A stretch of 64,000 bases of DNA. It comes from Ancylobacter gelatini (GTDB taxonomy: Bacteria > Pseudomonadota > Alphaproteobacteria > Rhizobiales > Xanthobacteraceae). The translations under genes and the position numbers were made by a program. The notes under the pieces were generated by a model. It worked only from the letters and a program-made list of their open reading frames with translations. It had not been told where the DNA came from and did not search any database. This document shows positions 12,020 through 59,678 of this stretch, piece after piece. Numbering within the stretch: position 1 is the first letter of the stretch; every line of letters begins with the position of its first letter. The DNA lies in the NCBI RefSeq assembly GCF_022601675.1, contig NZ_JAKVIL010000015.1, positions 1 through 64,000 of the forward strand. The letters run 5' to 3'.

Positions 12020-13543
12020 ATGGATATGTTCATCGCCGCCCTTCACATGGTGATCGAGCCCTCGACGCTGCTCACGCTGGTCGCCTCCAGCCTGTTCGGC
12101 TTCGCCGTGGGCTGTCTTCCCGGCCTTACCGCCACGATGGCGGTGGCGCTGCTGGTGCCCATGACGTTCTTCATGAGCCCGATCGCCGCCATCACCTCCA
12201 TTGTCGCGGCCTCCGCGATGGCGATCTTTGCCGGCGACATTCCCGGCGCGCTGCTGCGCATGCCGGGCACGCCGGCCTCCGCGGCCTATGTCGAGGATTC
12301 CCATATTCTCACCAAGCGTGGCGACGCGGGGCTGGTCATCACCTCGAACGCCGCGTTCTCCGCGATCGGCGGCATTTTTGGCACGCTCGTCCTGATCGTG
12401 GCGGCGCCGGCCCTTGCCGATTTCGCGCTCGATTTCAGCGCCTATGAGTTCTTCTGGCTCGGTGTGCTCGGGCTCTCCTGCGCGGTGTTCGTGGCGGGGG
12501 ATGATCTGGTCAAGGGCATGACCTCGCTGATGTTCGGCCTGCTCATCGCCACCGTCGGAATGGACTACACGACCGGGCACCCGCGTTTCACCTTCGGCAT
12601 CGTCAACCTGCTTGAGGGCGTCAGCTTCATTCCCGGCCTGATCGGCATGTTCGCCCTGCCGGAAATCCTGCGCTCGCTGCTCACGCCGGGCCATGTCGCC
12701 ACCGTGGCGAAGATCCAGACCAGGGGCGCGTGGCGCAAGACCTGGGAAGCGGGGAAGCGCTACTGGGGGCAGATGGTGGGCGGCAGCGTGCTCGGCACCA
12801 TCATCGGCGCACTGCCCGGTGGCGGCGCCGATACCGCCGCCTGGATCAGCTATGCCATGGCGAAGAAGACCTCGAAGGAGCCGGAGAAGTTCGGCAAGGG
12901 GCACATCGAGGGCATCGTCGCCGGCAGCGCCGCCAACAATGCCGCCCTGAGCGGGGCGTGGATCCCGGCCATCGTCTTCGCCATTCCCGGCGACACCATC
13001 ACCGCCATCGGAATCGGCGTTCTCTACCTCAAGGGCGTCAATCCCGGCCCGACGGTGTTCATCAACAATGGCGAGCTGTTCTACGCCGTCTTCATCGTCT
13101 TCATCCTCGCCAATCTGCTTATGTTTCCGCTCGGCTCCCTCGCCATGCGCATCGCGCAGGTGGTGCTGCGCATCCCGCGCGACCTGATCCTGCCGGCGCT
13201 GCTCGTGCTCTCCGTCACCGGCGGCTATGCGATCGACAATGACTTCTTCGGCATCTGGATCCTGCTGGGTCTCGGGGCGATGGCCTATCTGATGGAGGAG
13301 AACGGGTTCCCGATCGCCCCCATGGTGCTGGGAATCGTGCTGGGCGAGATCGTCGAGCAGAACTTCATGCAGGCGCTGATCAGCAGCAACGGCAATCTTC
13401 TCGGCCTGTTCAGCCGGCCGATCGCCGGCGTGCTCGGCGCCGCCACCATCATCATCTGGACGGTCCCGCTGCTGCGGTGGATCTGGTCGCGGTTCGTCGC
13501 CGCGCCGGGCGTGCCGGCCAGCGGACATCGGGGACACGAATGA
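12020..13543 (+). CDS. tctA: Tripartite tricarboxylate transporter large membrane subunit
   Basis: Twelve-helix permease (507 aa) that carries the substrate through the inner membrane together with TctB. Typical TctA segments are present: GCLPGLTATMAVALLVP in the first helices, AGDIPGALLRMPGTPASAA, and the later GGSVLGTIIGALPGGGADTAAW and PGDTITAIGIGVLYLKG repeats. Its stop overlaps the start of the DRL-type oxidoreductase gene by ATGA, tying transport to the downstream enzymes. Confidence 0.93.
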   Translation: MDMFIAALHMVIEPSTLLTLVASSLFGFAVGCLPGLTATMAVALLVPMTFFMSPIAAITSIVAASAMAIFAGDIPGALLRMPGTPASAAYVEDSHILTKRGDAGLVITSNAAFSAIGGIFGTLVLIVAAPALADFALDFSAYEFFWLGVLGLSCAVFVAGDDLVKGMTSLMFGLLIATVGMDYTTGHPRFTFGIVNLLEGVSFIPGLIGMFALPEILRSLLTPGHVATVAKIQTRGAWRKTWEAGKRYWGQMVGGSVLGTIIGALPGGGADTAAWISYAMAKKTSKEPEKFGKGHIEGIVAGSAANNAALSGAWIPAIVFAIPGDTITAIGIGVLYLKGVNPGPTVFINNGELFYAVFIVFILANLLMFPLGSLAMRIAQVVLRIPRDLILPALLVLSVTGGYAIDNDFFGIWILLGLGAMAYLMEENGFPIAPMVLGIVLGEIVEQNFMQALISSNGNLLGLFSRPIAGVLGAATIIIWTVPLLRWIWSRFVAAPGVPASGHRGHE

Positions 13544-14961
13544 ACTATCATCGCTATTTCGCCGTTGACCGCGAGCCGGTCGAGACCTGCGTCATCGGCA
13601 CGGGCGGCTTCGGCCGCAGCTTTCTGGCGCAGGGCCTGAGGGTGCCGCGGATGCGGGCGCGCGTCGCCGTGGACCGGGAGGCAGGCATCGCCGCGCAGGC
13701 GCTCGCCTCCGTCGGGGTGGAGCCGGGCCGCATCCATGTCTGCACCAGTCCCGCCGAAGCGAGGGCGGCTTTCGCGGCCGGTGATTTCGTGGCGGCGGGC
13801 GATCTTGCCGTGGTCATCGACCTGCCGCTGGACGTGGTGATCGAGGCGACCGGGCATCCCGGCGCCGGCGCGCGCCATGCCCGGCTGGCACTGGCCGCCG
13901 GCCGGCATCTCGCTGTCGTCACCAAGGAACTCGACAGCGTGGTCGGTCCGGGCATTGCCCGGCTGGCCGCCGAACGCGGCAAGGTGTCCAGCCCGGTCGA
14001 CGGCGATCAGCCGAGCCTGCTGATCGGCCTCATCACCTGGGCGCAGACGCTGGGCTTCGAGATCATCGCCGCCGGCAAGTCCAGTGAATATGATTTCGTG
14101 TTCGATCCCGCGACCGGCCTTCTGAGCAGCAATGGCCGCACGGTGTCGGCCCCCGCCATGGGCGATCTTCTCACGCTCGGGGACCGGCCGACCGCGGAAC
14201 TCGCCGCCGCCCGCTCGCAAGCCGCCGCCATGCTACCCCAGCGGGCCGTGCCCGATCTGTGCGAATTGCTGATCGTCGGCAACGCCACCGGCTTCCTGCC
14301 GGACCGGCCGGATCTTCATGCGCCCATCGCGCGGATATCGGAAGTCCCGAGCTTCCTCGCCACCCGGGCCGAGGGCGGCCTGTTGGCGGGCGAGCAGCGG
14401 ATCGACGTGTTCCACTGCCTGCGAACGCCGGACGAACCGAGCTTTGCCGGCGGCGTGTTCGTGATCATCCGCTGCCATGACCGCGAAACGTGGGACATGC
14501 TGGCCGAGAAGGGCCATGTGGTGAGCCGCACCGGCGACACCGCCATGCTCTATCTGCCGCGCCACCTGCTGGGACTGGAGGCGGCGACCAGCATTCTGGA
14601 GATCGCGCTTCTCGGCGCCTCGAGCGGGGGGCTCGCGCCGCGCCCGCATCTCGATCTGGTGACCCGCGCCACGCGTGACCTGCCGGCCGGCACCATGCTC
14701 GACATGGGCGGGCATCATCACACGATCGACGGGGCGACCGGCGAACTGGCGCCCGCCGCGCCATTGATGCCGGACGCGCCGGCGCCGTTCTATCTGGCCG
14801 CCAATTGCCGTCTGGCCCGTGCTGTCGCGCGCGGCCGGATCGTCACCATGGCCGACCTCGACATTTCCGAGGACTCCGAACTGCTGACACTTCGCCGGCT
14901 GCAGGACGCAGCCTTCTTCGACCCGGCCATGACGGCCGGCAGGATGTCGGAAGACGCCTGA
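13540..14961 (+). CDS. DXR-like (DRL) / SAF-domain NAD(P) oxidoreductase
   Basis: Protein of 473 aa in the homoserine-dehydrogenase-like family with a C-terminal SAF domain. An N-terminal Rossmann motif (VIGTGGFGRSF, residues 18-28) is followed by TKELDSVVGPG and a conserved DGDQPSL loop (residues 154-160). A SAF segment (RATRDLPAGTML ... CRLARAVARGRIVTMADLDI) closes the protein. The family includes Brucella DRL, a 1-deoxyxylulose-5-phosphate reductoisomerase; others are linked to sugar-acid catabolism. Here it is flanked by tctA (ATGA overlap) and pdxA (TGATG junction), so I infer oxidation or isomerisation of a hydroxy-acid phosphate or similar substrate. A second member of the family lies at 50440-51786. 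Confidence 0.78.
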   Translation: MNYHRYFAVDREPVETCVIGTGGFGRSFLAQGLRVPRMRARVAVDREAGIAAQALASVGVEPGRIHVCTSPAEARAAFAAGDFVAAGDLAVVIDLPLDVVIEATGHPGAGARHARLALAAGRHLAVVTKELDSVVGPGIARLAAERGKVSSPVDGDQPSLLIGLITWAQTLGFEIIAAGKSSEYDFVFDPATGLLSSNGRTVSAPAMGDLLTLGDRPTAELAAARSQAAAMLPQRAVPDLCELLIVGNATGFLPDRPDLHAPIARISEVPSFLATRAEGGLLAGEQRIDVFHCLRTPDEPSFAGGVFVIIRCHDRETWDMLAEKGHVVSRTGDTAMLYLPRHLLGLEAATSILEIALLGASSGGLAPRPHLDLVTRATRDLPAGTMLDMGGHHHTIDGATGELAPAAPLMPDAPAPFYLAANCRLARAVARGRIVTMADLDISEDSELLTLRRLQDAAFFDPAMTAGRMSEDA

Positions 14962-44540: not shown

Positions 44541-45239
44541 TCATGACGTCTCCTGCGTGCGCAGAAGGGCCGGGATGGTTCGCAGGATGATGGCCACATC
44601 GGTCCAGAACGACCAGTTCCGCACATAATCGGCATCGATGGCGACGCGCTCGGCGTAGGAGAGGCGGCTGCGGCCGCTCACCTGCCACGCCCCGGTCATC
44701 CCCGGACGAACGCTCATGTAATGCTCGGCCATCTGTCCATAGAGCGCGATCTCGTCGCGCACGATCGGGCGCGGGCCCACACAGCTCATCTCGCCGCGCA
44801 GCACGTTCAGCAGTTGCGGAAGCTCGTCGAGGCTCGAATTGCGCAGAATGCGGCCGATGAAGGTCACACGCGGGTCGTTTTCCAGCTTGCGGGTGAGCTG
44901 CCACTCCTCCGCCGCCGCGGGATCTGCACGCAAATGCTCCTGAAGGACGCGCTCGGCGTCACAGACCATCGTGCGAAACTTGTAGCAATAAAACTCCCGG
45001 CCGCCGAAGCCGACCCGCCGATGCGCGAAGACCACCGGGCCGTCCGTCGAGGCCTTGATGAGAACCGCGGTCATCATAATGACCGGCGACAGCAGAACCC
45101 CCGCCGTCGCGGCGATGCACACATCGAGAATGCGCTTGGCCGCCCCGCCCGGCGCCCGCTCGGCCAGCAGCGGGTCGCTCGGCCTCGATCCAGAGAACGG
45201 GCCCGTCGGGATTCCAAGAAATGAATGATCGTCCAGCAC
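44541..45239 (-). CDS. Undecaprenyl-phosphate sugar phosphotransferase (ExoY-like)
   Basis: Initiating enzyme of repeat-unit assembly: transfers a hexose-1-phosphate (galactose in ExoY) to undecaprenyl phosphate. One N-terminal membrane helix ([22 protein letters not shown]) precedes the conserved catalytic region: [39 protein letters not shown] and [18 protein letters not shown]. Length (232 aa from GTG 45239, with GGGGGT upstream) equals that of ExoY. A TTG at 45293 would add 18 residues but lacks a ribosome site. It is monocistronic or last after the Wzz-like gene; a palindrome lies about 100 bp upstream. Confidence 0.88.
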
Positions 45240-45336
45240 GTAAACGACCCCCGTCTGCTTTCCTCTTGATTTTCGGACGGAGCCGCTCGCCAAACCAGCG
45301 CGTAGAAGACGTAATCGTTAATATAAAGCTGCATGT

Positions 45337-45550: not shown

Positions 45551-47383
45551 TCAGACCGCCTTGTTGAGAACAGTGCCCAGCACGCGGCTGCCGGTGGTCT
45601 CGAGCCGGTCGACGGCTTCGGTGATCAACTGGGTGGGCGTCTGCCCCCATTCGACCACGACGAGCAGGCCATCCAGAAGTGGGCCCATGGCGATCGCCGC
45701 CGAACTCTGCTCCAGCGCGGGAAGGTCCACCACCACGATGTCGTGGTTCCGCAGCGCCTCATCCAGACAGCGCATCATGGCGACCGAGCCCAGAAGCGCC
45801 TCGGAAATGGCGGAGCTGAACTTCCGGGTCGGCACCAGTTCGATATGGGTGTGCGGGACCGGAATGGCGCATTCGGCGACGGGCCGGTACTCCAGCAGTA
45901 TCTGCATCAGGCCGGGCTGCTGTTCGGAGGCGGCCGCGGCGCGTGTCAGGGTGCAGCGCTGGAAATCCGCATCGATGACGAGTACCCGCGTGCCGGACGC
46001 ACCCAGCAGGCAGGCGAGGTTGCCGGCAATGGTGGTCTTGCCTTCGCCGGTGAGCGCGGAGGTGATGCCGATGGTCCGCGTCTGATGCGAACGAACCCGT
46101 TCAAGAGCGATGAGCGTCGTGCGCACATTGGCGAGGGCGTTGAGGAACGGATCGCCGCCGAGCTGGTCATGCGTGATGAAACATTCCAGGTCGGGCCGCC
46201 CGAAGCGGCGCTTCATGCCGGCGAGGATGGTTCCCAGGCCGCGATAGAAGGAGCGACGCGCCGACCATCCGGTATGCCGCGTGCGGTGGAACCGGGGCAG
46301 GGCGCCGAGACAGATGCGGCCGAGCTTCTGGTTGGCGTGCCGGACCGAGCGGACGCTGGTGTCGAGATTTTCCCGCAGCACCGCGGCACCGACCCCGACG
46401 ACCCCGCCGAGAAGCAGGCCGAAGCTGAGGATCATCTTGGATCGCGGATAGCTCTTGCCGAGCGGCGTGGTCGCCGGAGTGAGCAGGCGCGTCTCGACCA
46501 GCGGGTTGGACTGGCGCTGCAGCGCCTCGGCATAGCCCTGTACGGCGCTCTCATAGATCTTCTTGTAGGCGAGCGCGGTGCTCTCGAGTTCCTCCAGCGT
46601 ATTGCGGTCGGTGGCCGCGCTCTGGCCGGGCGGGGGCGCGCCGGGAGCCGTCCCGGCCGGTGCGGCGAGGTTGCGGGCGGCGGCGCTGCTGCGGCCGGCG
46701 CGGAACTCCTGCTGCGCCAGTGCCGCCGCGTTCATCTGCTGGCGCAGTTTCCCCACCCGGCTTTCCAGCCAGTCGGAGCCGGCGCGTGCCGCCCGCGTGC
46801 GCGATTCCAGCTGATCGCGGATGTAGACGTCGGCGGTCGCGTTGGCGATTTCCGCGGCGAGTTCCGGGTCGGGCGAGGAGAAGCTCAGATCGATGACATA
46901 GGAGAGGCCCGCGCGCCGCACGTCGAGCCGGTCGGCGAAGGCGCCCAGGGCCTGCCGCAAAGACACGGCCTCCTCGGAATCGCTCGCGTTCCGCGTCATG
47001 AAGGCAGGGTTGTTCAGAAGGTCGAGTTGCTCGATGACCGCCTTGGCGACCCGCTCGGAGCGCAGCACCACCAGCTGGCTTTCGATCTGCGCCGCATCGA
47101 TCGCGTTTGACTGCATCTCCTCCCGCGTGGGCTGGGACGATTTTGGATCGATCAGCAACTGGGCGCGGGCGGTGTAGAGCGGTGTCGCCAGATTCACATA
47201 GACCAGCGCACAGCCTCCGCCGATCGCAAGTGCGGTGAGAACGATCAGCACATGCCGAAGAACAAAGACAGACATTTCCGAGACCGTGATCGTATCGGCC
47301 CGGAAGTCCGTGCTTGAGAAATCGACGTGTTCGCCGACCGTATTCGATACAATTTGGCGTGCATCGCGCCTCTTGAAGCTCAT
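45551..47383 (-). CDS. Wzz-type chain-length / BY-kinase-like protein (ExoP-like)
   Basis: A 610-aa inner-membrane protein controlling polymerisation and export. Two membrane helices (about 41-62 and 318-337) flank a periplasmic coiled-coil domain with a proline-rich insert (240-254). The second helix is preceded by PATTPLGKSYPRSK, typical of Wzz. The cytoplasmic domain has Walker A SALTGEGKT (442-450), Walker A' VLVIDAD and Walker B IVVVD (549-553). No Tyr occurs after residue 499, so the C-terminal Tyr cluster that BY-kinases autophosphorylate is absent. I chose ATG 47383; a longer frame to 47521 runs through AT-rich DNA and an inverted repeat. Confidence 0.88.
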   Translation of the reverse strand: MSFKRRDARQIVSNTVGEHVDFSSTDFRADTITVSEMSVFVLRHVLIVLTALAIGGGCALVYVNLATPLYTARAQLLIDPKSSQPTREEMQSNAIDAAQIESQLVVLRSERVAKAVIEQLDLLNNPAFMTRNASDSEEAVSLRQALGAFADRLDVRRAGLSYVIDLSFSSPDPELAAEIANATADVYIRDQLESRTRAARAGSDWLESRVGKLRQQMNAAALAQQEFRAGRSSAAARNLAAPAGTAPGAPPPGQSAATDRNTLEELESTALAYKKIYESAVQGYAEALQRQSNPLVETRLLTPATTPLGKSYPRSKMILSFGLLLGGVVGVGAAVLRENLDTSVRSVRHANQKLGRICLGALPRFHRTRHTGWSARRSFYRGLGTILAGMKRRFGRPDLECFITHDQLGGDPFLNALANVRTTLIALERVRSHQTRTIGITSALTGEGKTTIAGNLACLLGASGTRVLVIDADFQRCTLTRAAAASEQQPGLMQILLEYRPVAECAIPVPHTHIELVPTRKFSSAISEALLGSVAMMRCLDEALRNHDIVVVDLPALEQSSAAIAMGPLLDGLLVVVEWGQTPTQLITEAVDRLETTGSRVLGTVLNKAV

Positions 47384-47400
47384 GGCGGAACCTGATGAAA

Positions 47401-47423
47401 CCGTATCGATGACATCGATACGG
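47401..47423. promoter_or_regulatory. Perfect inverted repeat upstream of the Wzz/kinase gene
   Basis: CCGTATCGAT-GAC-ATCGATACGG: 10-bp exact arms and a 3-bp spacer, 18 bp before ATG 47383. It could be an operator, or a hairpin ending or attenuating transcripts from the gene ending at 47440, as TTTC follows on the minus strand. A further ATTAC-N10-GTAAT repeat lies at 47450-47469 in AT-rich DNA. Confidence 0.5.
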
Positions 47424-47439
47424 GGCCGCGCGCTCGAAT

Positions 47440-48792
47440 TTATAATATAATTACAAGAAATAATGTAATATGCGTCGCATTCGACAGTAAGTCCTCTAAA
47501 ATAGGTAGGCTGTATAAGCACAACGAGCTAACCCAGGCGGCGCCGGCCTCCCGCATTAGGGGGATATCGAGTCGTCCACGGGCCGGCCAGATTGCCTCCC
47601 ACCGCTCCCCCAGCTCTTTCCGCACCTCCTTCAGGTAGGACTTTGCGCCCAGGGCGGTCTCCACCGTCGGCGCGGAGGCATCCGGCGCCCGCTCCAGCCA
47701 GGCTTCGCGCCACCAGCAATAGATGGCGCGCGGACAGAAGACGCGCTTGCCGCTGATCAGCCCCCGGCACCACACGTTTTCGAGGATGACGGCGGGTGTC
47801 TTCATCGTCCGCATGACGCCGGTCTTCTCGTCGAGGAACCGCTCGACCCGCGCACGCACGCGGTAGACGCCGCCGCAATAGGGCACCATCTCACCATCGA
47901 AATAGAGCCCGCGATGGTGGTTTCGCGCATCGATGGTCATCAGGATCTCGTCCAGCGGCTTCACCCGCACGAGTTCGCCCGGCTGCAGGCCCAGCGGGTA
48001 GATCGGCGCCTCGGCGGCGTTCTCCAATCGACCCCAGCGGCGCGGATAGGGCACGCCGCCCCAGAATGACTGGAACCGGTCGTACAGCCACAGGCCCGGC
48101 GCGCCGAAGCGCGAGCGCGGACGTGCAAGCGCCTCATAGGCGAAATAGGCCGCGCTTTTCAGCATGGTGCCGAGCCCGACATTGCGCGAGGCGAGATCTT
48201 CGGCGAACTGGCTGATGTTCCAGGGGCCGATCAACTTGGTGAAGGCCGGAAAATCCGTGGCCTGACACTGCCAGCGCGGTTTGCCGGAGGCCGACACGCC
48301 ATTGCGTGCGGCATCGATCACCTGGCTTTCCGTGCAACCCTGTCCGACGCCGGTCGCGGGAGCCCCTGCTGGCGCCAATTCGGCGCCGCTGGCGTCGATC
48401 CGCCTGAGCCACGCCTCCTTCCAGAACACGCTGCACGCGGCCTGACAGCCGCCATGTGCCGCGCCGCTGCAGCGCACCCCCTCCAGCAGCACGCCGTCCA
48501 CGAGGCTGCGGCTGCTCACGGGGTGGAGGGTATCGCAGCTCTTGTGGCCGCGCCGGGCGACGCGGATGCGCTGGCCGCAATAGCTGAACATTTCCGGCAT
48601 GAAGGGCATGCCGTCCAGCCGACCGTTTCGGTCGAGCGTGGCGAGGATCTCGTCCCGGCTGCGCACCGCCACCCAATCCCCCGCACAGGAGCGTATGGGG
48701 GACGGGTGCGCCGGCGCGCGGTCCGGCGGCGATCCGCCGCCTGTCTGCGCCAGGCCCATGCCCGGCAGGGAGTCTTCATCGGCCTGAGCCAT
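47440..48792 (-). CDS. Unrecognised protein with a duplicated cysteine-containing domain
   Basis: I do not recognise this 450-aa protein. It has two copies of a domain of about 90 residues (40-130 and 275-368). Shared positions: [VR]V[RK]xxDEIL, a Thr-[LI]-Asp, Gly-x-x-Phe, EM-x-x-YCG, RV, V-x-LE-x-V-x-C-x-G, a further Cys and W-[KR]-EAWL. Three Cys are kept in both copies (72/306, 108/342, 116/353), which suggests metal binding or disulfides. There is no signal peptide and no clear membrane helix except a hydrophobic tail (about 421-450) encoded in AT-rich DNA. The start ATG 48792 has an ideal AAGGAGG 6 nt upstream. It lies 12 bp after the PIG-L deacetylase gene, implying a joint role. Confidence 0.75.
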   Translation of the reverse strand: MAQADEDSLPGMGLAQTGGGSPPDRAPAHPSPIRSCAGDWVAVRSRDEILATLDRNGRLDGMPFMPEMFSYCGQRIRVARRGHKSCDTLHPVSSRSLVDGVLLEGVRCSGAAHGGCQAACSVFWKEAWLRRIDASGAELAPAGAPATGVGQGCTESQVIDAARNGVSASGKPRWQCQATDFPAFTKLIGPWNISQFAEDLASRNVGLGTMLKSAAYFAYEALARPRSRFGAPGLWLYDRFQSFWGGVPYPRRWGRLENAAEAPIYPLGLQPGELVRVKPLDEILMTIDARNHHRGLYFDGEMVPYCGGVYRVRARVERFLDEKTGVMRTMKTPAVILENVWCRGLISGKRVFCPRAIYCWWREAWLERAPDASAPTVETALGAKSYLKEVRKELGERWEAIWPARGRLDIPLMREAGAAWVSSLCLYSLPILEDLLSNATHITLFLVIIL

Positions 48793-48803
48793 TGACGCCC
48801 TCC

Positions 48804-49454
48804 TTAAATTTTCAACAGCAGCTTGCGAGCCATAAAACCCTCGGCGTAGTGCGCGCGGCATTCGACGCCGCGCAGCCGCGCGAGGCCCCGGAACGTCTCG
48901 GCGTCGAACCACGCCTTCGTGCGCTGTGTGCCGAAATGGCGCTGAAGGATTTCGATCTTGCGCGCGAGGATGTCGTCCGAAAGAGCGACGTAGACGTTCG
49001 GCCGGCCGAGATCGCCGTCCCATTTCGGGATTTCGACCTCCAGGATGAGATGATCCCGAAAGGTGTTCCAGGCGAACTCGGCAAGCAGCCGATGGTCCTG
49101 ATGGGCATCGTCTCGATGATGGGTGAGCACCACATCGGGATCGAAGCGCTCCTTGAGCGACTCCACCCATTCCTTTACAGCCGCCCGGTCGGCGGGGAGG
49201 AAACCGTCGCGGAAGCCGCCGATGCGGATATCGACCGCGGCGGCGCCCTCCAGCAGGTCCGCCGCACTCGCCCGCGCCTCGTCCTCGCGCGCCCCGGCCG
49301 CGCTCGCCACGCACCACAGCACCTCAAGTGCGGCTCCGGCGGCAATCCAGCTGAGCAGGGCTCCGCCCGCGCCAATCTCGATGTCGTCGGAATGGGCGCC
49401 AAGGCACAGCACCTTGAGTGTCTCGCCTGGACGCAGGAGTGCGAGGTCGCGCAT
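48804..49454 (-). CDS. PIG-L/LmbE family sugar deacetylase
   Basis: Zinc-dependent N-deacetylase of 216 aa acting on GlcNAc-type groups of small glycosides or sugar nucleotides. The metal motif is AHSDDIEIG (His21, Asp23, Asp24; Ser replaces the usual Pro), and the second metal region is THHRDDAHQDH (His113, Asp116, Asp120, His121). No signal peptide, so it acts in the cytoplasm. It sits 4 bp after the cytidylyltransferase gene and 12 bp before the duplicated-domain gene, so it may deacetylate the sugar made by this cassette. Confidence 0.87.
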   Translation of the reverse strand: MRDLALLRPGETLKVLCLGAHSDDIEIGAGGALLSWIAAGAALEVLWCVASAAGAREDEARASAADLLEGAAAVDIRIGGFRDGFLPADRAAVKEWVESLKERFDPDVVLTHHRDDAHQDHRLLAEFAWNTFRDHLILEVEIPKWDGDLGRPNVYVALSDDILARKIEILQRHFGTQRTKAWFDAETFRGLARLRGVECRAHYAEGFMARKLLLKI

Positions 49455-49458
49455 GGCG

Positions 49459-50262
49459 TCACGCCCGCGATGCGATGGCCTGCGGGGCCGCCCCGCATCG
49501 GCGCCAGGGCATCTGCCCTTTCTCGATCATGTCTTCGAGGCTCTGGCGGTCCTTGAGCGTATCCATGGCGCGCCAGAAGCCTTCATATTTGTAGGCAAGA
49601 AGCTGGTCGGCCTTGATCAGCCTGGCGAAGGGTTCGACCACCAGTTCCTCGCCGTCGCGCATGTAGTCGAAGATTTCCTTGCGGAAGATGAAGTATCCGC
49701 CATTGATCCACATGTCGGCAGCGTCGGAGGCCTGCATCTCGCGAACCCGCCCGGTGTCGTCGATCTGCGCCAGATGGAAGGTGAGCATGGGATGCACCGC
49801 GAGGAAGCACGCCACCTTGCCGCTGCGCTTGAAGGTCTCGATCATCTCGTCGAGCGGCGCATCGGACAGGCCGTCCGAATAGTTGGCGAGGAACATTTCC
49901 TCGTCCTGAACGAGATGGCGCACCGCCCATAGCCGCGAGCCGATGTTGCGCCACACGCCGGTGTCGACGAGCGACATCCGCCAGTCCACCGGCTTTTCGC
50001 CGAGAATGTCGACGGTTGCGCCGCCATTGCAGACCACGAGGTCGCTGTAGATCTCGGGGCGGTGATTCAGGAAGAATTCCTTGACCACATTGGCCTTGTA
50101 TCCAAGGCACAGCACGAAATCGCGATGCCCGAACCGGCTGTAATAGTCCATTACATGCCAGAGGATCGGCTGACCGCCGACGGGTATCATCGGCTTCGGA
50201 ACAGATTCCGAGTATTCCCGGATGCGCGTCCCCAGACCGCCGCAGAAGAGGATTACTTTCAT
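49459..50262 (-). CDS. rfbF: Glucose-1-phosphate cytidylyltransferase-like nucleotidyltransferase
   Basis: Activates a sugar-1-phosphate with CTP (inferred from RfbF/DdhA-like pattern). The 267-aa protein starts MKVILFCGGLGTRIREYSESVPKPMIPVGGQPILWHVMDYYSRFGH, with the nucleotide-binding GGLGTR and the Lys of VPKPM. It has DTGVWRNIGSRLW, LANYSDGLSDAPLDEMI and FIFRKEIFDY, close to RfbF, which makes CDP-glucose. No CDP-glucose 4,6-dehydratase of the usual RfbG type is adjacent; the SDR at 52432 may replace it. Start is ATG 50262; the frame up to 50286 lacks a better site. Confidence 0.85.
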   Translation of the reverse strand: MKVILFCGGLGTRIREYSESVPKPMIPVGGQPILWHVMDYYSRFGHRDFVLCLGYKANVVKEFFLNHRPEIYSDLVVCNGGATVDILGEKPVDWRMSLVDTGVWRNIGSRLWAVRHLVQDEEMFLANYSDGLSDAPLDEMIETFKRSGKVACFLAVHPMLTFHLAQIDDTGRVREMQASDAADMWINGGYFIFRKEIFDYMRDGEELVVEPFARLIKADQLLAYKYEGFWRAMDTLKDRQSLEDMIEKGQMPWRRCGAAPQAIASRA

Positions 50263-50304
50263 GGCGATAATCCATCTAATGAACATTTAAGTAAATTTAA
50301 ACGA

Positions 50305-50326
50305 ATAGTATAAAAATCCATACTAT
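50305..50326. promoter_or_regulatory. AT-rich inverted repeat upstream of rfbF-like gene
   Basis: ATAGTAT (50305-50311) and ATACTAT (50320-50326) are exact complements 8 bp apart, 43-65 bp before the start at 50262. The surrounding 50287-50350 is the most AT-rich stretch of the locus. Likely promoter/operator of the rfbF-PIG-L group. Confidence 0.4.
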
Positions 50327-50439
50327 CAATTATATAGAAGCAAATACCTCTTTCGAGTGAGAGTACGGTAGGTTTTCTCTGCGCGGACACAGACATCAAC
50401 CGGCCTTGTCATTCCGACGGGAGGCCGGCGGTAAGGGGC

Positions 50440-51786
50440 TCAGGCCGGCGCAAGGGTCGCGGTCGGGTGGGCAGAGAGACGCTCGCTCAGCCAGGTCTCG
50501 CCGCGAAAATGTTCGTACTGTTCGGCACGCAGCCGGTCGGCGAGGCGTCCGGCGGGCAACTCGACGTCGTCATAGGTGATCACGGCGTCCCGGAGCACCG
50601 GACGCACGAGCCGGCAGCCCTGCACCAGCCCTTCGGGCAGGTAGCGGCCGCGGCTCATCTCATCGACATTGGCGGCCTCGCCATAGGTCATGTACATGCC
50701 GTAATCGTCGAGGATCTCACCGGCCTGAAGGTCGCGCTTCGCGACCGCGCACACCTCGACGACGGGCCCCCCGAGCGGCGGGGCGAGAGTGTCGCCGAAC
50801 AGGACGACCCGCGCGATCGCGCTGGGCGTCTCGAAATGCACGAGGTGATAGGGCACCCAGAACGGGTAGAGCGGTCCTTCCCCCAGCTTGTAGAGATTGA
50901 GGTAGTGCCGCTGCTTCGGGTCGCTGTGCTCGGCGAGGATGAAGGCCTTAACGCCGGCTGGCCCTACCGTGTAGTCCACGATGCCGCCCAGCGCGCGCAG
51001 CTCCTCGAGGTCGTAGAGCTGGTGGATGTCCATGATCGAGCCCGCATATGCCGTCCCGCGGCTCATGCCCCGCCTGCGCACCTTGAAGCCGGTGGCGTTG
51101 GCCACGATGGTCTGCTCGAAGCTGATCTTGGAGCCGTCGGCGAAGGAGGTCACCATCGCGGCATTCTGTTCCCACCGCTCCGCCCACGCCCGCTGGGTCG
51201 TCGGGTTGCGATAGGGATCCTGAAGCCCCTTGACGTTGCCGATGACGCGCGGCGTCAGCCCCAGACCCTTCACCCACCGATACAGGTTCATCTGCAGGCC
51301 CGGCTCATCGCCGTCGCAGGCCGAGAGAAGGACGCCCTGTCGGCGCGCGTAGACCTGCAGGATGGGCCCGAGCGTGGCGTCGACCTCGGCATTCATCATC
51401 ACCACGTGCTTGCCGTAGAGGAAGGCCTCCAGGAACACGTTGGCGCCGAATTCCACCGACCCGGTGACGTCGACGATCACGTCGATCATCTGCGAGCGGC
51501 AGATCAACGAGGGGTCGTCGGCCACCACCGGGCGCCCTGCCCGGATCGCCGCGTCGAGCGTGGCGACGGTGTCGGCGCGGACCACGTCCCCGAGGCCGGC
51601 ATAGTGATACACCCGCACGGCCCGTTCCGGCGTCCGGTTGTAGATGGCGGACATCTGCATGCCCGGCACGCTGTTGACGATCTGGTTGGTGAGGCCCTGG
51701 CCCATGAAGCCGGCGCCCAGCATGCCGACCCGGATCGGCCGTCCGGCGGCCGCGCGGGCTTTCAACGCCGTGTCGACGAGGATCAC
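50440..51786 (-). CDS. DXR-like (DRL) / SAF-domain oxidoreductase of the EPS cassette
   Basis: A 448-aa member of the same family as the protein at 13540. It has the Rossmann motif VGMLGAGFMGQGL (20-32), NAEVDATLGPIL, the family loop DGDEPGL (158-164), KGLQDPYRNPTTQ, and a C-terminal SAF domain (VCAVAKRDLQAGEILDDYG ... VQGCRLVRPVLRDAVITYDDVEL). The start is GTG 51786, overlapping the RmlC-like stop as GTGA. Family knowledge: the Brucella DRL enzyme rearranges and reduces deoxyxylulose-5-phosphate to a branched product. Here, between a cytidylyltransferase and two sugar-nucleotide enzymes, I infer action on an activated sugar or its precursor. Function is not established. Confidence 0.8.
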   Translation of the reverse strand: MILVDTALKARAAAGRPIRVGMLGAGFMGQGLTNQIVNSVPGMQMSAIYNRTPERAVRVYHYAGLGDVVRADTVATLDAAIRAGRPVVADDPSLICRSQMIDVIVDVTGSVEFGANVFLEAFLYGKHVVMMNAEVDATLGPILQVYARRQGVLLSACDGDEPGLQMNLYRWVKGLGLTPRVIGNVKGLQDPYRNPTTQRAWAERWEQNAAMVTSFADGSKISFEQTIVANATGFKVRRRGMSRGTAYAGSIMDIHQLYDLEELRALGGIVDYTVGPAGVKAFILAEHSDPKQRHYLNLYKLGEGPLYPFWVPYHLVHFETPSAIARVVLFGDTLAPPLGGPVVEVCAVAKRDLQAGEILDDYGMYMTYGEAANVDEMSRGRYLPEGLVQGCRLVRPVLRDAVITYDDVELPAGRLADRLRAEQYEHFRGETWLSERLSAHPTATLAPA

Positions 51787-52376
51787 AGCACGGCCTCCTG
51801 CGCGACATCGGCGCCGAAACGCATCCGCGCACGCAGCGCCGGCTCGATCTCGTCGAGCAGCGGCCACGCCTCGTCTTTCGGCGACATCTGCGTCACCGGC
51901 AGCGGCCAGTTGAGCCCCAGGCGCGGATCGTCGTGCCGCAGCCCGCCTTCAGCCGCCGGAGCATAGAACTCGCCCACCTGATAGCTGGTCTCGGTGCGGT
52001 CCTCGAGCACCTGATAGCCGTGAGCGAAACGCTCGGGCACATAAAGCGCCGTGTGCGTGTCCGCGGTCAGCTCGACGGCGATGTGCTGGAGATAGGTTGG
52101 GCTTTCCGGCCGCAGATCGACGATGATGTCGAGGATCGCCCCGCGCGTACAGCGAACGAGCTTGGTCTCGGCGGCGGGGGGGTACTGGAAATGCATGCCG
52201 CGCAGCGTGCCGCGCTGCCGGTTGAACGCCAGATTGGCCTGCGCGATGGCCGGCTTCAGTCCGTGCGCGGCGAACTCCTTCTGGCAGAAGGTGCGAGCGA
52301 AGAAGCCGCGTTCATCCTCGCGGCGGTCCAGTTCGATGATGAACGCTCCGGCGAGGCTGGTTTCGTTGAAGATCAT
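51783..52376 (-). CDS. dTDP-4-dehydrorhamnose 3,5-epimerase-like protein
   Basis: Cupin-fold sugar-nucleotide epimerase of 197 aa. It has RGTLRGMHFQYPP with the catalytic His, then VDLRPESPTY, YVPERFAHGYQVLED and the conserved Tyr region TSYQVGEFYAPAAEGGLRHDDPRLGLNWP. All the RmlC active-site segments are present. No RmlA/B/D genes are adjacent, so the substrate is probably a CDP- or other NDP-4-keto sugar from this cassette and not dTDP-rhamnose. ATG 52376 follows GGAGG by 6 nt; the frame upstream overlaps the SDR gene. Confidence 0.85.
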   Translation of the reverse strand: MIFNETSLAGAFIIELDRREDERGFFARTFCQKEFAAHGLKPAIAQANLAFNRQRGTLRGMHFQYPPAAETKLVRCTRGAILDIIVDLRPESPTYLQHIAVELTADTHTALYVPERFAHGYQVLEDRTETSYQVGEFYAPAAEGGLRHDDPRLGLNWPLPVTQMSPKDEAWPLLDEIEPALRARMRFGADVAQEAVL

Positions 52377-52431
52377 GTCGGCCTCCATTCGTGGATGGTG
52401 CGTGGCGCTGCGGCAGACCGGTGGCGGCCGA

Positions 52432-53499
52432 TCAGCCGGCGGCGGTCTTTCCGACCGGTTGCAGGGTCGGCGCGTGCCCGGTCCAGCGCAGCGAGGCATC
52501 GAGCCGGCCCTCGGCGATCAGCCGCTTGAGCGTGTCGATGCGCCGGAAGCGCGGCCCCTCGAAATCCTCGACGGTGACGCCGACCTCCCGATAGGCCGCG
52601 TAGAGCTGCTCGACGCCGCGCCGCGCGGTCCATTGCGGCTGGAATTCGGGGAGCTGCCGACGAACCTTTTCGAAGCTCACGCTATAGGAGCGCTTGTCCG
52701 GTTCGCCGCCGGGGGCGTACTCGATCACGCAGTTCGGCACGATCTGCTCGACCATGTCGGCCAGGCCGCGGATCTGGTAGTTTTCCTCGTCCCGCCCGAT
52801 GTTGAACGCCTCGTTGTGCACGCGCTCACGGGGGGCGCGCGCTGCGGCGATGAAGGCGCGGGTGATGTCCTCGATATGAACGATCGGGCGCCACGGTGTG
52901 CCGTCGCTCTTGATCAGTACCCGGCTTTTGGCGACCGCCCAGGCCGTGAGATTGTTGAGCACCAGATCGAAGCGCAGGCGTGGCGACAGCCCGTAGGCGG
53001 TGGCGTTGCGCAGGAAGACCGGGCTGAAATTCCTGTCCGCCATCGCCGCCAGCGACCATTCCACCATCGCCTTCGAGCGGGCATAGGGCGTGATCGGCGC
53101 AAAAGGCGCCTCTTCCGTCACCGCTCCGTCGCCGGAGGCGCCGTAGAGGCTGCAGGAGGAGGAGAAAAGGAAGCGCTCCACGCCGGCCTGCTTGGCGGCA
53201 CTCGCCAGCCGCACGGTGGCGGCATGGTTGAGCTCATAGGTCAGGTTGGGATTGAGGTCGCCGAGCGGGTCGTTGGACAGCGCCGCGAGATGGAACACGG
53301 CGTCGAAGCCTTCCAGATCGCGCGGCGTCAGGTCGCCGACATGGGCCCGGATGTGGCGGGCCGCCCGTGGTGCCGGCTGAAACAGGCAGGCCTCGAAGAG
53401 ATCCGCATCGACGCCGACGACGTCGAAGCCCTGTTCCACCAGCATCGGAACCATGACCGAGCCGATATATCCGGTATCTCCGGTGACAAGCACTTTCAT
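52432..53499 (-). CDS. NAD-dependent epimerase/dehydratase (extended SDR)
   Basis: Sugar-nucleotide-modifying SDR of 355 aa. It has VTGDTGYIGSVMV (NAD loop), FHLAALSNDPLGDLNP, catalytic Ser in FLFSSSCSLYG and YARSK, and VFLRNATAYGLSPRLRFDLVLNNL. This subgroup is commonly found with cytidylyltransferase and RmlC-like genes in surface-polysaccharide loci; the reaction may be 4-epimerisation, 4-reduction or 4,6-dehydration. Start is ATG 53499, the first residue of the Rossmann strand. It is followed by the RmlC-like gene after 55 bp. Confidence 0.82.
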   Translation of the reverse strand: MKVLVTGDTGYIGSVMVPMLVEQGFDVVGVDADLFEACLFQPAPRAARHIRAHVGDLTPRDLEGFDAVFHLAALSNDPLGDLNPNLTYELNHAATVRLASAAKQAGVERFLFSSSCSLYGASGDGAVTEEAPFAPITPYARSKAMVEWSLAAMADRNFSPVFLRNATAYGLSPRLRFDLVLNNLTAWAVAKSRVLIKSDGTPWRPIVHIEDITRAFIAAARAPRERVHNEAFNIGRDEENYQIRGLADMVEQIVPNCVIEYAPGGEPDKRSYSVSFEKVRRQLPEFQPQWTARRGVEQLYAAYREVGVTVEDFEGPRFRRIDTLKRLIAEGRLDASLRWTGHAPTLQPVGKTAAG

Positions 53500-53628: not shown

Positions 53629-54654
53629 TCAGGCGGTCAGTCTTGTCGGCTCGCGGATCGGAAAGGCCGGGGACTTCAGGCCGAACCGGATGGCGGCCTT
53701 CCGCGCCTGCCAGGCGGCACGCAGAAAGGGCCACTCCAGAACGGCGTGGAGATAGGCCTGCGATGTCGGCAGGGCGGAAGCACGGCCCAGCCAGTCCAGA
53801 TGCATGGCCCGCGTTTCCTGCGCGCCGGTGGCCAGCCAATAGAGCAGCCAGCGATAATAATAACGCAGGTGACGTTCCCTGCATTCCAGGTATTCGGACT
53901 TCCGGTCGAACACCTTCGGCCCCCATCGATCGATGATCTGCAAGATCGACCAGAAATCGATAAAGTTCTTTTCCTTGTAGGTCGCGGTGATCGAGGCGTC
54001 GTGCATGCGCGAAACCACGAGCGGCTCGTGCACGCAGGCATAGGCGCCGCGCGACAGCGCACGGATCGCCGCATCGAGGTCGACATCCAGCAGCGGCGTT
54101 CCGTAGAACTCGGTGTCGTAGAAGGTTTTCGTCATCGCGCCCGCCGGCTTGCGGTAGAGGCAATGCTGGTAGGGCGGCCCGTGGATTTCCTTGCGCAGCT
54201 TGTGCCGGGCAATGGCGCGGCCATTGAACAGTGACCGGTCCGTCGGCAGGTCCCCGCCGAACAGTACGTCGTTGTTCCAGCCATAACAGCCGATGACGCT
54301 GGCCTGCGGATAGCGCTCGCCCACCGCGACCATTTTCTCGATGCAATTCGGCACCATGAGGTCGTCGGCGGGAAGAAGACGGAAATAGCGCGCCTGCGGC
54401 GGCACCCTTGCCAGCGCCGCGTTCCAGTTTTCAAGCTGCGGCAGCGTCTGCGCATTTCGGTAAACGACGATCGGAACGGGACCGTCGCGGTATTTCGCGA
54501 GGATCTGCGGGGTCTCGTCGCTGCTGGCATTGTCGAGAATGCAATGCACCAGCCGGGGATAGGTCTGCGCCTGCACGCAGGCCATCGTCTCGTCGAGAAA
54601 CCTCCCGCCATTATAGACGGGCGTCGCGATGGCTACGAGCGGTGCGGAGGCCAT
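53629..54654 (-). CDS. Family 2 glycosyltransferase
   Basis: GT-A transferase of 341 aa: IATPVYNGGRFLDETMACVQAQTYPR, DNASSDETPQILAKY and RLLPADDLMVPNCIEKMV with the metal-binding ADD motif. No membrane helices, so it works at the cytoplasmic face. ATG 54654 follows AAGGA by 9 nt and is preferred over the open frame to 54690. It has a 129-bp gap before the SDR gene; the upstream 54655-54898 gap (244 bp) shows no feature I can name. Donor and acceptor unknown. Confidence 0.82.
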   Translation of the reverse strand: MASAPLVAIATPVYNGGRFLDETMACVQAQTYPRLVHCILDNASSDETPQILAKYRDGPVPIVVYRNAQTLPQLENWNAALARVPPQARYFRLLPADDLMVPNCIEKMVAVGERYPQASVIGCYGWNNDVLFGGDLPTDRSLFNGRAIARHKLRKEIHGPPYQHCLYRKPAGAMTKTFYDTEFYGTPLLDVDLDAAIRALSRGAYACVHEPLVVSRMHDASITATYKEKNFIDFWSILQIIDRWGPKVFDRKSEYLECRERHLRYYYRWLLYWLATGAQETRAMHLDWLGRASALPTSQAYLHAVLEWPFLRAAWQARKAAIRFGLKSPAFPIREPTRLTA

Positions 54655-54898
54655 GTGCGGACGTCCTTCATGAACCGGGCGGCGGAACAAGCGCGCCGGG
54701 AATGCGCCGATCGCTCCGCGTGGGCGCCAATCCGGGCTCGCTGAAGACGTCGGCTACAAATTGAGGATAATGGCGGTGTCCGCTGGGGAACGGCGATAAT
54801 ACGGCGTAGCGCCGTCGCTCTTCCGAGGGAGGGGACAGGCCCGATTATCTTCCCGGCCTACCGAATCCGGCTCCCCCAAAATACCTCTGCCGGCGAGG

Positions 54899-58370: not shown

Positions 58371-59678
58371 ATGCGGATCTCCTGGAGACACACGCTTCTC
58401 CTGATCGCCGCGATAACGCTGGCGGTGCCGGCCATTGCACCGGCGGCCCGCGCGGCGGAGCCCTATCTGCTGGGGCCGCAGGATCGGCTGCGGATCCGCG
58501 TGTTCGAATGGCGCAGTTCGCAGGACAAGATCGTGCAGTGGGAGGGGCTCAACGACGAGTTCACGGTGTCCGACAGCGGCAGCGTCAGCCTGCCTCTGGT
58601 CGGCGAGGTGGTCGCGCTCGGCCGTACGCCGCCCCAGATTGCCACCGAGATCGCGGAGCGATTGCAGCGGCGCATGGACCTGATCGCCCCTCCGGACACC
58701 AGCGTCGAGGTTTCCCAGTATCGCCCGATCTATGTCGTCGGCGATGTCATGAAGCCCGGCGCGTTCCCGTTCCGGCCGGGCATGATCGTCATTCAGGCCA
58801 TTTCGCTCGCGGAAGGCATTTTCCGTACGCCGAACCAGGTGCGTGAGATGGTCACCGCCCAGGGCGAAATGAGCGAGATCGCGCTGAGGATCGATGCCCT
58901 GATCGCACGGCAGGCCCGGCTGGAAACCGAGGCGGCGGGCGATGAGACGATCCGCTTCCCCCCGGCGCTGCTGCAACGCCGGTCGGTGCCGGCCATCGCC
59001 GCACTCATCCGTCAGGAGACGCTGATCTTCCAGATGCGGGCGGAAGCCTATCGCACGCAGACCGAGGCGCTGCGCGATCTTCAGTCCTATCTCACTAAGG
59101 AGGTCGCCTCTCTCGATGCGCAGATGGAGGCGGAGGTGACCCAGGCTGATCTCCTCAACAAGGAACTGGAGGGGATCGCCTCCCTCGTCGCCAAGGGGCT
59201 GGCCGTCGCTCCGCGCCAATACGCTTTGGAGAGATCCAAGGCGGAAATTCAGGGCGACCGGCTGCGGCTCGAGGGCAGCATGCTGCGCGTGCGCCAGGAG
59301 ATGAGCAAGGCCGACCTCAGCCTGCTGGAGCTCCGGAACAAGCGCCAGGGCGATATCGCCCTCGAAATCCGCGCCACTGCGCAGGAACTCCGCCAGTTGG
59401 AGAACCGCAGCCGAATTGCGGAAGGCCTGCTCCGGCAGATCGACCCGCTGTCCATCGGTGGCAACCGGAGCCGGCCAAAACCGATCTTCATGATGCTGCG
59501 CGCCGGGCAGAATGGCGGCGAGGCCTTCGTGATCAAGGACACCGATCCGGTCCTTCCCGGCGACACGATCATCGCGTCGCTGCCGGCGCTCGACACGGGC
59601 CAGCCGCAGGATGTCCCACCCGAGGCCGCACGTCCCGACATCCGGCCCAATCCGGCGTCGGTCACGGTGGCGAACTGA
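58371..59678 (+). CDS. exoF: Exopolysaccharide export protein ExoF
   Basis: Periplasmic polysaccharide export protein of 435 aa. The signal peptide ends near residue 28 (AARAAEPYLLG). The Poly_export domain (LGPQDRLRIRVFEWRSSQDK, then SLPLVGEVVALGRTPPQIATEIAERLQ) and the SLBB-like part (PIYVVGDVMKPGAFPFRPGMIV) precede a long coiled coil (about 190-370), the layout of rhizobial ExoF and unlike the short Wza lipoproteins. There is no lipobox Cys. It should link the Wzz-like protein to the outer membrane exit. Confidence 0.9.
   Translation: MRISWRHTLLLIAAITLAVPAIAPAARAAEPYLLGPQDRLRIRVFEWRSSQDKIVQWEGLNDEFTVSDSGSVSLPLVGEVVALGRTPPQIATEIAERLQRRMDLIAPPDTSVEVSQYRPIYVVGDVMKPGAFPFRPGMIVIQAISLAEGIFRTPNQVREMVTAQGEMSEIALRIDALIARQARLETEAAGDETIRFPPALLQRRSVPAIAALIRQETLIFQMRAEAYRTQTEALRDLQSYLTKEVASLDAQMEAEVTQADLLNKELEGIASLVAKGLAVAPRQYALERSKAEIQGDRLRLEGSMLRVRQEMSKADLSLLELRNKRQGDIALEIRATAQELRQLENRSRIAEGLLRQIDPLSIGGNRSRPKPIFMMLRAGQNGGEAFVIKDTDPVLPGDTIIASLPALDTGQPQDVPPEAARPDIRPNPASVTVAN

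Follow-up and report, generated by a model that had tools for sequence, protein, structure and literature searches.

The locus described here raises the question of what a DRL-domain oxidoreductase, a relative of an isoprenoid enzyme, does among exopolysaccharide genes. It lies in positions 1 to 64,000 (forward strand) of contig NZ_JAKVIL010000015.1 from the Ancylobacter gelatini assembly GCF_022601675.1, and this whole 64,000-nucleotide stretch is referred to as the window. Four genes of its minus strand follow one another at 49459-53499. They encode an extended short-chain dehydrogenase/reductase (SDR; 52432..53499; PF01370, best PDB match 6vo6), proposed to be a C4-dehydrogenase of a cytidine diphosphate (CDP) sugar; an RmlC-type 3,5-epimerase (51783..52376; PF00908 at 210 bits), which is a member of TIGR01221 (162.5 bits against a cut-off of 155.75); a DRL/SAF oxidoreductase (50440..51786; PF21135 DRL_cat at 148 bits, PF03447 and PF08666 SAF), proposed to be a CDP-4-ulose reductoisomerase that combines ring contraction with reduction; and a sugar-1-phosphate cytidylyltransferase of divergent RfbF type (49459..50262; PF00483, PDB 1tzf at 183 bits). 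An earlier sequence-only reading of this DNA had described the four-gene row, and the row stands, as does the GTGA that the GTG start of the DRL gene shares with the TGA stop of the RmlC gene. Its standing as one transcription unit is less secure: the DRL and cytidylyltransferase genes are separated by an AT-rich gap of 177 nucleotides (50263..50439) with a sigma-70-like match at 50356-50329, so that the four genes need not be one operon (two such sites were found in the scanned region versus 0.9 expected, by consensus match only). The set very likely makes an unusual sugar for a cell-surface polysaccharide. We give an even chance to the more specific proposal that this is a CDP-linked, C3-branched, ring-contracted sugar for exopolysaccharide, and judge it equally balanced whether the DRL is the enzyme that contracts and branches the sugar ring.

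The evidence that carries this proposal comes from the gene neighborhoods of the clade to which the window DRL belongs. We compared 89 loci, comprising the best 80 of 513 relatives found in genome contigs with a five-sequence query, four genome loci, and five of 78 plasmid records; no p-values are attached to their counts, since the selection was made by similarity and the loci are not independent of one another. An RmlC-type gene was scored above 70 bits anywhere in the locus, an SDR at 150 bits or more, and RfbG and the L-2-hydroxyglutarate oxidase LhgO at 200 bits or more. RmlC-type genes are present in 85 of the 89 loci (within 8 kb in 77/80), and three loci that lack one (L094, L109, L149) contain only 179, 1,833 and 71 nucleotides upstream of the DRL gene. 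A cytidylyltransferase of either type, RfbF or that of the window, is found in 77/89. As a control, 22 loci of DRLs from outside the clade, of 9 to 20 kb each, were examined; above 70 bits, none gave a match for RmlC, for the SDR or for a cytidylyltransferase. Record titles place the clade loci in Acidobacteria, Deltaproteobacteria, Nitrospira, Acidimicrobiia, Limisphaerales, Alpha- and Gammaproteobacteria and Cyanobacteria; Deinococcus and Persicobacter are represented among the plasmids. Two loci have more than one clade DRL. L084, a Limisphaerales contig, carries two of them and has cytidylyltransferases of both kinds, the RfbF type and that of the window. In L140, from a cyanobacterium, a single RmlC gene is followed by two clade DRLs in tandem, which share 60% and 50% identity with the window DRL.

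The enzyme that would form the 4-keto sugar is not the same throughout these loci. SDR without RfbG occurs in 69 of them, RfbG without SDR in six, neither in 14 and both in none; lowering the threshold to 70 bits adds a weak RfbG-like match to one SDR locus, L093, at 30% identity and a distance of 9.4 kb. In eight of the 14 loci with neither enzyme, the sequence to one side of the DRL gene is shorter than 2 kb, three others (L095, L098, L128) are of the window cytidylyltransferase type, and the remaining L082, L097 and L167 are neither case. The RfbG loci are those of five cyanobacteria (L111, L124, L138, L153, L155) and Persicobacter (L166). RfbF, RfbG, RmlC and DRL are the recognised pathway genes of the former, with glycosyltransferases and proteins of no recognised kind between them; Persicobacter has RfbG, two RmlC-type genes and the DRL, with no RfbF in the stretch. 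In all six the DRL is the sole recognised reductase-like gene beside RfbG and RmlC. The strongest reason to place the DRL on a CDP-4-keto sugar is that the upstream enzyme is swapped while RmlC and the DRL are kept, and we consider it very likely that the substrate of the DRL is a nucleotide-linked 4-keto sugar and that its step comes after that of RmlC.

The SDR loci have a further partner in LhgO, which is encoded in 48 of the 69 and in none of the six RfbG loci. It is clearly recognised in L104 (NF008726 at 625 bits, cut-off 299), next to a genuine RfbF (TIGR02623 at 466 bits), and Deinococcus ficus has rfbF-lhgO-SDR-rfbC-DRL in one run. Of the 21 SDR loci without LhgO, 15 are of the type found in the window, which has a PIG-L family de-N-acetylase gene instead. 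The structure 6vo6, best match of the window SDR, is what we take to be Cj1427. The tightly bound NADH of Cj1427 is reoxidised by 2-oxoglutarate, which yields L-2-hydroxyglutarate (PMC10680097, as far as its text was available). The co-occurrence of SDR and LhgO fits a Cj1427-like SDR, whose L-2-hydroxyglutarate could be removed by LhgO. The window set itself is not a standard CDP-3,6-dideoxyhexose (RfbFGH) set: its SDR reaches 36 bits on TIGR02622, for which the cut-off is 278, and has the motif SSSCSLYG with no TDK or SDK, where two aligned RfbG proteins have TTDKSY and TSDKCY. The absence of RfbG and of the dTDP-rhamnose enzymes RmlABD, claimed from the sequence alone, holds at equivalog level with NCBIfam models for RfbG and RmlD within the set; for RmlA, RmlB and RmlD no model match over the cut-offs was seen among ten scanned proteins, no genome-wide search having been made.

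The genes, their repeated association, the exchange of the 4-keto-forming enzyme and the residue changes described below are observations. From them we infer the following pathway, in which the individual activities in this organism, their order, the rearrangement, the stereochemistry and the identity of the sugar are all proposals. The cytidylyltransferase would activate a sugar 1-phosphate, which is that of glucose in RfbF-type relatives. The SDR would oxidise C4 with no dehydration, its NAD+ being probably regenerated on 2-oxoglutarate, and RmlC would invert C3 and C5 of the 4-ketose. The DRL would then carry out an alpha-ketol rearrangement, in which C2 migrates from C3 to C4, shrinking the pyranose ring and leaving C3 as a formyl branch, and would end by reducing this branch with NADPH to CH2OH. 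Starting from 4-keto-glucose that RmlC has epimerised at C3 and C5, the product would be CDP-3-C-(hydroxymethyl)-L-lyxofuranose, of the dihydrohydroxystreptose type, and the RfbG version of the pathway would lead to dihydrostreptose. The enzyme DXR converts 1-deoxy-D-xylulose 5-phosphate (DXP) to 2-C-methyl-D-erythritol 4-phosphate (MEP) by migration of C4 from C3 to C2, followed by reduction of the freed C3 aldehyde. The order of DXP is C1H3-C2=O-C3HOH-C4HOH-C5H2OP, and its C1-C5 map onto C5-C1 of a nucleoside diphosphate 4-hexulose (C5, C4=O, C3HOH, C2HOH, C1-O-PP), with the diphosphate in place of the phosphate. The CDP-linked, possibly branched sugar of the sequence-only reading is supported, the branching as a possibility.

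The window DRL is probably not the isoprenoid enzyme of its genome, to judge by sequence relationships. The genome (4.31 Mb, 99.83% complete) contains four DRL-domain genes and no match to canonical DXR (PF02670), for which the same search was positive in 10 of 14 control genomes. Scores to Brucella DXR-II are 461 bits for the DRL of contig C14, 250 bits for the window DRL and 207 bits for that of C13. A FastTree phylogeny of 147 distinct sequences puts Brucella DXR-II and the C14 gene in a 39-tip clade with local support of 0.998, from which the window DRL is absent; the latter falls in a clade of 92 with support of 0.80, or 0.93 with one further sequence. Since scores above 250 bits against the window DRL were what selected the 92 sequences, the tree is a test of the split from DXR-II only. 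The window DRL was accordingly rejected as the DXR of this genome, as it is the C14 paralogue that groups with the Brucella enzyme. The C14 gene (G000:C14:196047-197252; L036) is a probable true DXR-II, on which isoprenoid synthesis may rest because the genome has no canonical DXR-I match. Two further DRLs were noted. The window itself encodes another, distantly related DRL-domain protein (13477-14961, plus strand), which has 25% identity to the first and perhaps belongs to a catabolic operon, as its gene lies next to genes for TctA/TctC transporters, a PdxA-like protein and an amidohydrolase. A Shinella plasmid (L168) carries a DRL that falls in the DXR-II clade and stands beside 2-oxoacid dehydrogenase genes, which suggests another role of the DXR-II family.

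The AlphaFold model of the window DRL, built with 28 sequences, has a mean predicted local distance difference test score (pLDDT) of 93.2. Its fold and domain order are those of Brucella DXR-II (PDB 3upl, 3upy), and 29 positions are invariant across 32 mixed DRLs, including D160, D217, K220, E224, N230 and H314, which are also present in the Brucella enzyme. The residues reported to anchor fosmidomycin in DXR-II are K191, K193 and T229 (PMC3847144, in the part of the paper available). At these positions the window DRL has N184, K186 and I221, and the clade has N in 92/92, K in 92/92 and I in 91/92; K186 is paired with K193 as in the multiple alignment, and the phmmer pairing with K191 was set aside. 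With much of the core retained and two anchors altered, the enzyme may apply the DXR chemistry to a different substrate. Viral contigs gave no match to the patterns of the window DRL. Leu, Ile or Val at position 229 is a trait of the DLO1 family according to PMC3847144, and I221 of the window DRL agrees with it. The DLO1 list in that text includes Nostoc and Deinococcus, both genera in which the clade occurs, Coxiella RSA 493 (NP_820815.1) and Streptomyces griseus (YP_001827426). According to the same text, as far as available, the family was named without a function, and four representative DLO1/DLO2 proteins, none from this organism, did not complement a DXR mutant. In the titles and abstract openings of open-access literature, we found no function assigned to DLO1 and no DRL linked to ring contraction. 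The S. griseus protein presumably might belong to the streptomycin cluster; this assumption, for which no usable confirmation was found, is not used here.

These residues bear on a pathway ordered as in MEP synthesis, in which the DRL would branch a linear sugar phosphate and the cytidylyltransferase would then activate it. The sequence-only reading had leaned on this logic, which has in its favor that DXP is the substrate of DXR-II and that a cytidylyltransferase gene is close by. The order is not supported by the related operons, in which a genuine RfbF, a glucose-1-phosphate cytidylyltransferase, accompanies a 4-keto-forming enzyme and RmlC, partners that act on nucleotide sugars. Two of the three fosmidomycin anchors, K191 and T229, are changed almost throughout the clade, and the tree separates the window DRL from the group that contains Brucella DXR-II. 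The window cytidylyltransferase, moreover, resembles RfbF and scores no more than 19 bits on the model for the cytidylyltransferase of the MEP pathway. We therefore regard such an order as very improbable.

A reading that leaves the sugar unbranched deserves more weight. The DRL could simply reduce the C4 ketone, taking the place that RmlD or the C4-reductases of Campylobacter heptose synthesis have elsewhere, and so make a CDP-L-hexose, or a CDP-6-deoxy-L-hexose in the RfbG loci. The gene logic is then that of the Campylobacter pathway, where a C4-dehydrogenase working on 2-oxoglutarate (Cj1427), an RmlC-type epimerase (Cj1430) and an NADPH enzyme come in like order; this pathway differs in acting on a guanosine diphosphate (GDP) heptose and in having a C4-reductase as last enzyme instead of a DRL (PMC10680097, text available in part). 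It is also the logic of the CDP-6-deoxy-L-altrose route: the CDP-6-deoxy-L-altrofuranose pathway shares CDP-glucose, a 4-keto step and a 3,5-epimerase acting on the CDP-sugar with the set discussed here, and has a C4-reductase and an FADH2-dependent mutase in place of the DRL (PMC12369002, abstract). The sugar 3-ketoreductase KijD10 is found among the weaker structural matches of the DRL model. However, DXR-II, which rearranges its substrate before reducing it, is the closest fold by far: Foldseek gave TM scores of 0.88-0.91 for 3upl/3upy and query TM scores of 0.35-0.42 for the other chains listed. In addition, the placement of a Coxiella protein described below ties the clade to an organism with a ring-contracted O-antigen sugar. 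On balance we consider a plain C4-ketoreductase the main rival of the branched reading and the less likely of the two.

The O-antigen of Coxiella is known to contain dihydrohydroxystreptose (PMC9095892; PMC5843353, both available in part). Its proposed synthesis has C4 oxidation, the 3,5-epimerase CBU1838, whose activity was shown, and a ring contraction to which no enzyme is assigned (PMC9095892), and is thus alike in its steps to the ring-contracting pathway proposed here, though it uses a deoxythymidine diphosphate (dTDP) sugar and the window set a CDP-sugar. Two candidate regions were named, cbu0825-cbu0856 and cbu1831-cbu1838, and the term 'oxidoreductase' does not occur in the main text (PMC9095892). 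The position of the Coxiella DLO1 protein can be estimated from accessions. CBU_1910 is NP_820887.1 (PMC8623512), and CBU_1829 would be NP_820808.1 by the order of a list in PMC10740251. NP_820815 should then be about CBU_1836 if no locus number is skipped there, and CBU_1838 at most. CBU_1837 is an SDR that was discussed for another sugar (PMC3539893, in the available part). DRL, SDR and RmlC thus probably stand together in Coxiella, as judged by accession order in three papers and not by sequence. A 369-genome sample of the class was also screened for DotI/IcmL, and 50 of the 51 positive genomes (G083 was left out) were searched with the DRL, which gave one partial match at 28% identity.

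A second link leads to the heterocyst envelope polysaccharide (HEP) of cyanobacteria. In L104 the gene order is cytidylyltransferase, LhgO, SDR, glycosyltransferase, a protein of no recognised kind, RmlC, DRL and glycosyltransferase. This order follows alr2825-alr2832 of the HEP island (alr2825-alr2841) of Anabaena PCC 7120 as annotated in PMC4390870, where, in the part available, alr2830 is rfbC and alr2831 is a probable NAD(P)-dependent oxidoreductase, so that order and annotations match. The HEP-island organism features in the DLO1 list (PMC3847144), whose proteins are not among the sequences of our tree. L104 differs from the window in having a genuine RfbF and LhgO where the window has the divergent cytidylyltransferase and PIG-L.

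This difference introduces a variant in which the ring-contracting pathway holds and the sugar is an amino sugar: the cytidylyltransferase would activate an N-acetylhexosamine 1-phosphate, and PIG-L (48804..49454, minus strand; PF02585) would deacetylate it before or after the ring step. Consistent with this, the window cytidylyltransferase is divergent from RfbF, and a PIG-L gene is present in all 20 loci of the 89 that carry the window-type cytidylyltransferase and in none with the RfbF type alone. PIG-L may nevertheless serve another step, because it also accompanies the same core with a C-methyltransferase where no clade DRL is present. Window-type cytidylyltransferases (at least 48% identity) were found in five genomes of a 398-genome sample, the genome of the window included. 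In three of these (G344, G130, G405) the 16 kb examined contain no DRL of the clade; searched as whole genomes at 1e-40, G344 and G405 gave no DRL at all and G130 gave DRLs of the DXR-II clade only. The three loci hold the cytidylyltransferase, PIG-L, SDR and RmlC (46-48% identical), together with a DUF4910 protein and a sugar C-methyltransferase, which matches PF08484/PF08421 in the two loci where it was scanned, so the same core can go with C-methylation. We consider the amino-sugar variant improbable.

Several points weigh against a branched, ring-contracted product. The window cytidylyltransferase scores below the RfbF cut-off (TIGR02623, 219 versus 300 bits; the next match of this type in the genome has 35 bits) and differs from RfbF at the TMTGG and TYGDG stretches, and since it is accompanied by PIG-L and not by LhgO, the window sugar may be N-substituted. 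LhgO at 200 bits or more is confined to 47 cyanobacterial loci and that of Deinococcus ficus, and as loci of the PIG-L type lack it, recycling on 2-oxoglutarate is an analogy for the window. L068 has no RmlC gene in its 16 kb, a true absence. A plain C4 reduction would account for the same gene set, and we know of no product or activity of any clade member. To our knowledge, the published heterocyst polysaccharide compositions comprise common sugars only, which speaks against a branched product, unless acid removed it. In Coxiella, an RmlD paralogue is favored for the ring contraction (PMC9095892), and cbu0825-cbu0856, not cbu1831-cbu1838, is tied to dihydrohydroxystreptose in the available text of PMC5843353. 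Finally, a sugar C-methyltransferase gene is present in 19 of the 89 DRL loci, a count that led us to discard mutual exclusion of the two genes.

The C-methyltransferase loci include L101, L108, L117 and 14 more from cyanobacteria, which hints at a second branched sugar; in L101, L147 and L152, where positions were compared, the gene lies between those for SDR and RmlC. In the window, the row of genes runs on past the cytidylyltransferase to PIG-L and then to a conserved protein with a repeated cysteine-containing domain (47440..48792, minus strand). An 11-member alignment was made for this protein, which has no Pfam family over the cut-off and is present in 10/89 loci. Its last 55 residues are absent from its nearest relative, and its predicted model is moderate (pLDDT 71), with no Foldseek match at E 0.001 or better. 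A family 2 glycosyltransferase (53629..54690, minus strand; PF00535) is encoded upstream of the SDR. The surrounding exopolysaccharide cluster comprises a Wzz and tyrosine-kinase-like protein (45551-47521), a sugar transferase (44541-45293), glycosyltransferases and a Poly_export protein (58371-59678).

The locus thus offers a candidate family for the ring-contraction step of streptose-like sugars. In its widest form, the proposal is that the DLO1-like DRL clade supplies the enzyme still lacking for ring contraction of nucleotide sugars, acting like DXR on nucleoside diphosphate 4-keto-hexoses to give streptose-like branched furanoses in many phyla, including those of the cyanobacterial heterocyst envelope and the Coxiella O-antigen; we hold this tentatively, at slightly less than an even chance. 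We know of no report of a branched sugar in the heterocyst envelope polysaccharide, where the proposal, if true, predicts one. Streptose-like sugars would then be widespread and not limited to two organisms, and the DLO1 proteins, named without a function in 2013, would have one. Isoprenoid and surface-sugar synthesis would share one chemistry, an alpha-ketol rearrangement followed by reduction.

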